Translations under genes and position numbers: made by a program
In this document: positions 3 to 1,332 of the stretch, in pieces
How positions within the stretch are numbered: the first letter of the stretch is position 1
How the letters are laid out: the number at the start of each line of letters is the position of its first letter
Source of the DNA: Candidatus Vecturithrix granuli
GTDB lineage: Bacteria; Moduliflexota; Moduliflexia; Moduliflexales; Moduliflexaceae
Reading direction: 5' to 3'
Assembly: GCA_000739535.1 (NCBI GenBank)
Contig: DF820473.1
Coordinates: 1-32,760 of the forward strand
Length of the DNA stretch: 32,760 nucleotides
The notes under the pieces: generated by a model
What the model saw: the letters and a program-made list of their open reading frames with translations, nothing else
The model's database searches: none
What the model was told of the DNA's origin: nothing

Positions 3-51
3 GTCCCAGGGCTGACACCCTGGGCTACCAGATTCCGCCCCGTTGGGGCTT
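3..51. repeat. Double-hairpin extragenic repeat
   Basis: Two compact hairpins lie side by side. CCCAGGG at 5-11 pairs with CCCTGGG at 18-24 around a six-base loop, and GCCCC at 37-41 pairs with GGGGC at 45-49 around GTT. This looks like a REP-type dispersed element. Bases 52-317 hold no further gene; a short GACGAAGTCGAAACGA motif at 100-115 belongs to another repeat family seen at 1750 and 32728. Confidence 0.55.
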
Positions 52-839: not shown

Positions 840-852
840 AAAGGAGGTTTGT

Positions 853-1332
853 ATGTCAAAAGTGCAAGTGAATATGCATGCCCCGGATTTTACTCTGAAA
901 GATGTGCATGATACGCCAGTAACGCTTTCTGGGTTTCAGGGCCGGAAAAACGTGGTAATGGTGTTTAATCGAGGATTTTTCTGACCGTTCTGCCGCCGGC
1001 ATCTGGCGCAGTTGCGCCAGGAGTATCAGCAATTTGTCCGACGAGATACCGAGGTGATCGTGGTTGGTCCGGAAAAACTCCCAGAATTTGCGACCTATTG
1101 GCAAAAAGAGTCGTTCCCCTTTATCGGTCTGCCGGATCCGGAACAGCGCGTGCTCAAACTCTACGGCCAGGAAGTAAAATTACTGAAATTAGGGCGTATG
1201 CCCGCTCAGGTCGTTATTGATCAACAAGGAATCATCCGTTTTGCCCACTATGGCGATTCAATGAAGGATATTCCGCCAAATCAAGAGCTTCTGGCGTTAC
1301 TTGATGGATTCAATCAGAACGCAAAATCATAG
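853..1332 (+). CDS. Peroxiredoxin-like selenoprotein with UxxC motif (159 aa, TGA read as Sec)
   Basis: ATG 853 follows a perfect AGGAGG (842-847). The frame runs through an in-frame TGA at 982-984 (codon 44) and ends at TAG 1330-1332. Across the TGA the protein reads NRGFF-U-PFCRRHLAQL. This is the active-site segment of the AhpC/TSA-like peroxiredoxin family, where the usual residues are C-P-F-C, so the TGA sits exactly on the first redox cysteine. C47 is the partner. The rest also fits the thioredoxin fold (VIVVGPEKL, FIGLPDPEQRVLKLYG, a GRMPAQVVID strand with cis-Pro, then the C-terminal helix). It probably reduces peroxides or disulfides. A SECIS-like hairpin lies at 1003-1020. It follows an HD hydrolase by 13 bp, and its 3' end overlaps the convergent PilZ gene by 6 bp. 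The alternative is a nonsense-mutated pseudogene or a sequencing error. Confidence 0.85.
1003..1020 (+). promoter_or_regulatory. Bacterial SECIS-like hairpin
   Basis: CTGGCGC (1003-1009) pairs perfectly with GCGCCAG (1014-1020) around an AGTT loop. The loop starts 25 nt after the TGA at 982-984, inside the 16-37 nt range usual for bacterial SECIS elements, and has a G in its second position, as SelB recognition generally needs. Weak pairs below the stem (T-G, C-G, G-T, with one mismatch) could lengthen it. The hairpin lies in coding sequence, as expected in bacteria. Confidence 0.75.

Follow-up and report, generated by a model that had tools for sequence, protein, structure and literature searches.

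Prx-like selenoproteins with a UxxC redox motif have been known for about two decades. They were described as a family with a thioredoxin-like UXXC motif, as opposed to the TXXU motif of the selenocysteine (Sec)-containing peroxiredoxins (PMC1088965), were reported from Syntrophus and Geobacter (PMC1794560), and are listed as Prx-like thiol:disulfide oxidoreductases (PF00578, UxxC/UxxU), a high-confidence predicted selenoprotein family (Table 1, PMC13188914). An earlier note, made from the DNA alone, had proposed a hidden gene of this type and had stated that such proteins exist, which agrees with this literature. In bacteria, the SECIS element is a hairpin located just 3′ of the UGA codon with a G in its small apical loop (PMC1088965).

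The stretch of DNA analysed here (the window) comprises the first 32,760 nucleotides of contig C11 from Candidatus Vecturithrix granuli UASB270 of the candidate phylum KSB3, whose genome, a population bin, has 21 contigs totalling 8,384,694 bases (PMC4312070). We conclude with high confidence that positions 853–1332 of the window are a selenoprotein gene of this organism, in which UGA would be read as Sec by means of a hairpin to yield a Prx-like enzyme. The features of the locus are as follows:

841–847 (+): ribosome-binding site AAGGAGG, 5 nt 5′ of the ATG at 853 (direct reading)
853–1332 (+): complete gene for a Prx-like UxxC selenoprotein, ATG start, TAG stop at 1330–1332 (Pfam and orthologues)
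982–984 (+): in-frame UGA, predicted Sec at residue 44, first position of U-P-F-C (TGA in 62 of 62 intact homologues)
991–993 (+): TGC encoding Cys47, the partner in the UxxC redox motif (invariant in the family alignment)
1003–1020 (+): predicted SECIS apical hairpin CTGGCGC-AGTT-GCGCCAG, G-containing loop at 1010–1013 (sequence, covariation and synonymous constraint)
1012–1332 (+): truncated ORF with a TTG start, as called by a stop-respecting gene finder; no separate gene (start within the hairpin, without a ribosome-binding site)

Translation of the window gives a single forward frame of 159 residues including Sec44, and the TGA is its sole interruption; the frame is thus intact on either side of that codon, as had been claimed. 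The read-through product begins with MSKVQ and reads NRGFFUPFCRRH around residue 44, and inspection by eye reveals no signal peptide. The ribosome-binding site lies before the ATG at 853, which indicates that translation is set up 5′ of the TGA. The earlier note also expected ordinary gene calling to report just 1012–1332, and this is the ORF given in the mechanical list, from the TTG at 1012. Such calls lose the active site and are corrected by read-through annotation. Separately, the extreme start of the contig (window positions 5–50, forward strand) matches the Acido-Lenti-1 RNA at 45.5 bits (gathering threshold 37).

The whole read-through protein matches the Pfam families AhpC-TSA (82.9 bits, cut-off 26) and Redoxin (73.2 bits), both above cut-off. 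The UGA opens a thioredoxin-like UxxC motif whose Cys is at +3 (U44-P-F-C47), and the proposal that it falls on the first Cys of an F-C-P-F-C site is borne out, U44 being the first Cys of CxxC. Profile alignment places U44 on the Thr, and Cys47 on the peroxidatic Cys, of the TxxC motif in peroxiredoxins. Since Sec falls on this Thr, i.e. on the first Cys of CxxC, we prefer to call the protein a Prx-like thiol:disulfide oxidoreductase; the original term ‘peroxiredoxin-like’ is right as regards the AhpC-TSA/Redoxin domain, but the protein is less well described as a peroxiredoxin.

Homologues were sought with conserved patterns from an alignment of four Sec-containing members, none of the patterns spanning the Sec codon. 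This search returned 67 related loci from bacteria and archaea with named genomes, although patterns drawn from Sec members may have overlooked Cys relatives at greater distance. We counted 62 of these loci, leaving out two for which residue 44 could not be placed in the alignment, two partial ones without this residue (L121 and L123) and a decayed one (L120). All 62 intact homologues have TGA at the codon for residue 44 in frames that are otherwise open, and none has a Cys codon there. This answers the alignment check put forward at the outset, by which homologues lacking both Cys and Sec at 982–984 would have spoken against the gene. As sampled, therefore, the family uses Sec here and includes no Cys form. 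The decayed copy, in a deltaproteobacterial bin, has TAA at the Sec codon together with several other stops.

The homologues are found in Desulfobacterota, Chloroflexota, Actinobacteria, KSB1, KSB3, Latescibacterota, Spirochaetes, Clostridium algidicarnis and Asgard archaea, and their motif is mostly NRGF-x-U-P-[FY]-C. Across 39 family members, R40, U44, P45, C47, Q106, K112, G114, R115, P117 and D139-I140-P141 are invariant. The best orthologues from whole genomes, each with one TGA, are 61% (G001, from the sister genus), 56% (G048) and 38% (G038) identical to the window protein, and a close orthologue with 62% identity (L081) is present in the KSB3 bin DOLJORAL78_50_49.

The hairpin at 1003–1020 corresponds to what had been noted, namely a perfect 7-bp stem with an AGTT loop that starts 18 nt past the TGA, its loop starting 25 nt past it. 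A U-G pair provides an eighth pair and the second loop base is G, so that the hairpin has the position and the small G-containing apical loop of a bacterial SECIS element. We rejected the hairpin alone as proof, since equally good ones (at least 7 perfect pairs, an acceptable distance and a G as first or second loop base) follow 14 of the 1,340 TGA triplets in the whole window when both strands are counted, or about 1%. In our assessment, the decisive evidence is comparative: the TGA shared by all 62 homologues and a synonymous freeze exactly under the hairpin.

This freeze was measured in the 55 sequences of common layout (54 bacterial loci and the window). Mean relative synonymous codon entropy is 0.10 at codons +8 to +11 past the UGA, where the loop and inner stem of the hairpin lie, vs. 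0.87 over the rest of the gene. Leu at +10 is encoded by TTG in 55 of 55 sequences, with six codons possible, and Gln at +9 by CAG in all 54 sequences having Gln there. The stem in turn varies in a compensatory manner in several lineages while the AGTT loop stays constant (TGGCGC/GCGCCA, TGACGC/GCGTCA, TGATGC/GCATCA, TGGTGC/GCACCG and TGGCAC/GTGCCG). Among 42 distinct sequences, five of the eight stem pairs show changes on both sides, and the covariation score exceeds those of all 500 shuffles and of all slid registers. RNAalifold independently recovers the inner four pairs, while the outermost pairs are weak (column 22–39 is unpaired in 34 of the 42 sequences). Synonymous sites that are frozen at +8 to +11 in a gene that is free elsewhere, together with the compensatory stem changes, argue that selection acts at the RNA level for a SECIS element under 1003–1020. 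The constant AGTT loop could serve as a search motif for this family.

A Chloroflexota subgroup (L114, L115, L116 and L127) has the AGTT-loop hairpin 16 nt past the TGA instead of 25 nt. No in-gene hairpin was found in two Asgard homologues (L124 and L125), both of which retain the TGA. The pair acts as a natural control, its lack of a hairpin being expected because archaeal SECIS elements are located in the 3′UTR (PMC1088965), and Prx-like selenoproteins have been reported from Asgard archaea (PMC11227280).

Elsewhere in the genome, the following loci bear on the decoding of the UGA:

C16:161214–162149 (−): selD, TGA-containing, with a strong downstream hairpin (locus L136; profile match)
C16:163011–163105 (−): tRNA-Sec-shaped tRNA-Cys(GCA) with U73 and a long variable arm (locus L002/L148; 58.1 bits as tRNA-Sec)
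C19:295537–295932 (+): PrxU-type peroxiredoxin with an in-frame TGA, FTFVU (locus L128; NF040737 equivalog, 427.9 bits)
C14:103615 region (−): 630-aa EF-Tu-type GTPase-domain protein (locus L015, positions 130–2019 of the locus; Pfam)

The genome contains tRNA-Sec with a UCA anticodon (69.7 bits), selA (630.6 bits) and selD (382.6 bits), and thus the selA, selC and selD set expected alongside a bacterial selenoprotein gene. The in-frame TGA of selD is at the active site (read AAGUAAKMD), and yedE and yedF equivalogs are clustered with this gene. With the window gene, three UGA genes are therefore found beside selA and tRNA-Sec. The fold given by Pfam, the conservation of the TGA, the covariation of the hairpin, the presence of selA, tRNA-Sec and selD and the two other TGA genes all support the selenoprotein reading. 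Among the papers searched, none links Modulibacteria with selenoproteins.

The machinery search suggested in the earlier note, which regarded the lack of either selB or tRNA-Sec as evidence against its proposal, had a divided outcome: selA, tRNA-Sec and selD are there, but searches of the 21 scaffolds with the family HMM, the SelB protein of the sister genome and the SelB wing_3 domain did not recover selB. Nor is selB found beside the PBP orthologue, located on C15, when synteny with the sister genome is followed; the genes that surround SelB there are not conserved around a corresponding place here. The proteins that come closest are, by their sequences, EF-Tu, IF-2, CysN-type, LepA, TypA and EF-G, together with one GTPase without SelB domains. 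The 630-aa GTPase on C14 was rejected, as it is SelB-like by score alone and Pfam assigns it the EF-Tu GTPase domain but none of those of SelB, its C-terminal part being otherwise unassigned. Stretches of N occur in the scaffolds, and full-length selB is present in the sister genome and in two other genomes of the order (G001–G003), so the likeliest explanation for the missing selB is an assembly gap.

Three other explanations of the locus have to be weighed against these data. The TGA might be a nonsense mutation or a miscall in a pseudogene, given that the assembly is a single population bin and that ordinary annotation would stop at this codon. We consider this extremely unlikely, because the same codon is TGA in every intact homologue across many phyla with both flanks open, and because the synonymous constraint is limited to the hairpin; a one-base sequencing error in the population-bin genome is likewise judged very unlikely, as the homologues have the same TGA. 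It is just as unlikely that the gene's true product is the short protein from the TTG at 1012, with the upstream frame serving as a leader. The mechanical ORF does exist, but its start, in contrast to that at 853, is not preceded by a ribosome-binding site, residues 1–43 are conserved among orthologues, and the product would be missing the UxxC site as well as some of the fold. A frame that is open across a TGA would also suit a genome in which UGA generally stands for an amino acid (e.g. Trp or Gly) instead of being recoded locally. The presence of SelA and of a tRNA-Sec with a UCA anticodon makes the chance of this negligible, as do the occurrence of TGA in only two of the eight AhpC-TSA-family matches of the genome, both times at the redox motif, and the absence of internal TGA from the matched translation-factor frames.

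A further alternative is that UGA 982 is decoded as Cys, either wholly or at selenium shortage, by the tRNA-Cys(GCA) on C16 using SECIS and SelB, which would make the product a CxxC enzyme at least part of the time. This tRNA of 97 nt combines a GCA anticodon with U73, a long variable arm and a tRNA-Sec-like fold, and an ordinary tRNA-Cys is present elsewhere in the genome. It is part of the selenium operon, flanked by a cysteine-desulfurase-family gene on one side and yedF-selD on the other (cluster order yedE, cysteine-desulfurase family, tRNA, yedF, selD(UGA)). Similar selC* tRNA-Cys are listed from Firmicutes, Thermodesulfobacteria, Nitrospirae and Proteobacteria (PMC7609411), and Vargas-Rodriguez 2018 is cited for tRNA-Cys of this type. 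As regards the 8/4 structure with an A51a bulge, the acceptor stem is long but mismatched in the Rfam alignment and the T stem has 4 bp, while the bulged A is not clearly seen. Judged by its anticodon, U73, variable arm and fold, the tRNA resembles selC*/tRNA-ReC and is a candidate for one in KSB3. Decoding of the UGA as Cys is nevertheless improbable in our estimate, as a true tRNA-Sec and selA are present. Moreover, none of the three other genomes of the order contains the extra tRNA, yet one of them, G001, has the same UGA gene; the tRNA is therefore no general explanation. We are also doubtful, if slightly less so, that the UGA of the window gene and those of the other selenoprotein genes are dual-decoded, as Sec with selenium and as Cys via tRNA-Cys(GCA) without it. 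If true, tRNA-ReC-type recoding would extend to KSB3, and UxxC and CxxC forms would arise from one gene. The missing selB and this extra tRNA-Cys are the only parts of the analysis likely to surprise a specialist.

Under the selenoprotein reading, which we prefer, expression would proceed as follows: the ribosome would initiate at the ATG at 853, and the hairpin at 1003–1020 would recruit a Sec-specific elongation factor, presumably SelB, with Sec-tRNA-Sec to the UGA at 982–984, where Sec would be inserted instead of termination taking place. The product would be a 159-aa cytoplasmic enzyme with a thioredoxin fold, belonging to the Prx-like thiol:disulfide oxidoreductases. The AlphaFold model has a thioredoxin fold (pLDDT 87.6, pTM 0.85) in which residue 44 is just before helix 45–56. 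Sec44 may thus act as the nucleophile at the N-terminus of this helix, with Cys47 resolving it as a selenenylsulfide. Such a couple is likely given the thioredoxin fold, the invariant residues and the placement of U44 on the Thr of TxxC and on the first Cys of a structurally characterized CPYC motif (see below). Most likely, the enzyme would reduce disulfides or peroxides via Sec44/Cys47 with thioredoxin as the reductant.

TlpA/ResA-type thiol:disulfide oxidoreductases are exported or membrane-linked in known cases, whereas in the window protein no leader is evident and Sec is present. In the TlpA/ResA-like structure PDB 3hdc, CPYC aligns with U44-P-F-C47 and the R-x-P proline region with P117. 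The best structural matches to the model are the peroxiredoxins Mycobacterium AhpE and Sulfolobus Bcp (PDB 4xih and 3drn; TM about 0.83–0.86); these differ in being Cys enzymes of 22–30% identity, with the peroxidatic Cys where Cys47 sits here. The PrxU/TxxU Sec-peroxiredoxins (NF040737) belong to the same superfamily, but the window protein has Sec at the Thr position and not at the peroxidatic Cys; membership was rejected (20.7 bits vs. a cut-off of 270; UxxC, not TxxU). Its best NCBIfam match is the SelL-related redox protein family NF040769 (77.9 bits, residues 9–105), in which it was not placed because this score is below the curated cut-off of 120 bits, as are those of four orthologues.

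The closest known system is the Prx-like selenoprotein family (PF00578), with which the window gene shares the AhpC-TSA/Redoxin domain, UxxC instead of TxxU, a SECIS element just 3′ of the UGA and an anaerobic host. The Geobacter reference of this family is WP_010940744.1; the window gene is placed in the family by domain, motif, SECIS and host. It is a further member of this known family and a standard bacterial selenoprotein gene; it differs in its host, the candidate phylum KSB3, which is new for the family and now joins the hosts of Prx-like UxxC selenoproteins.
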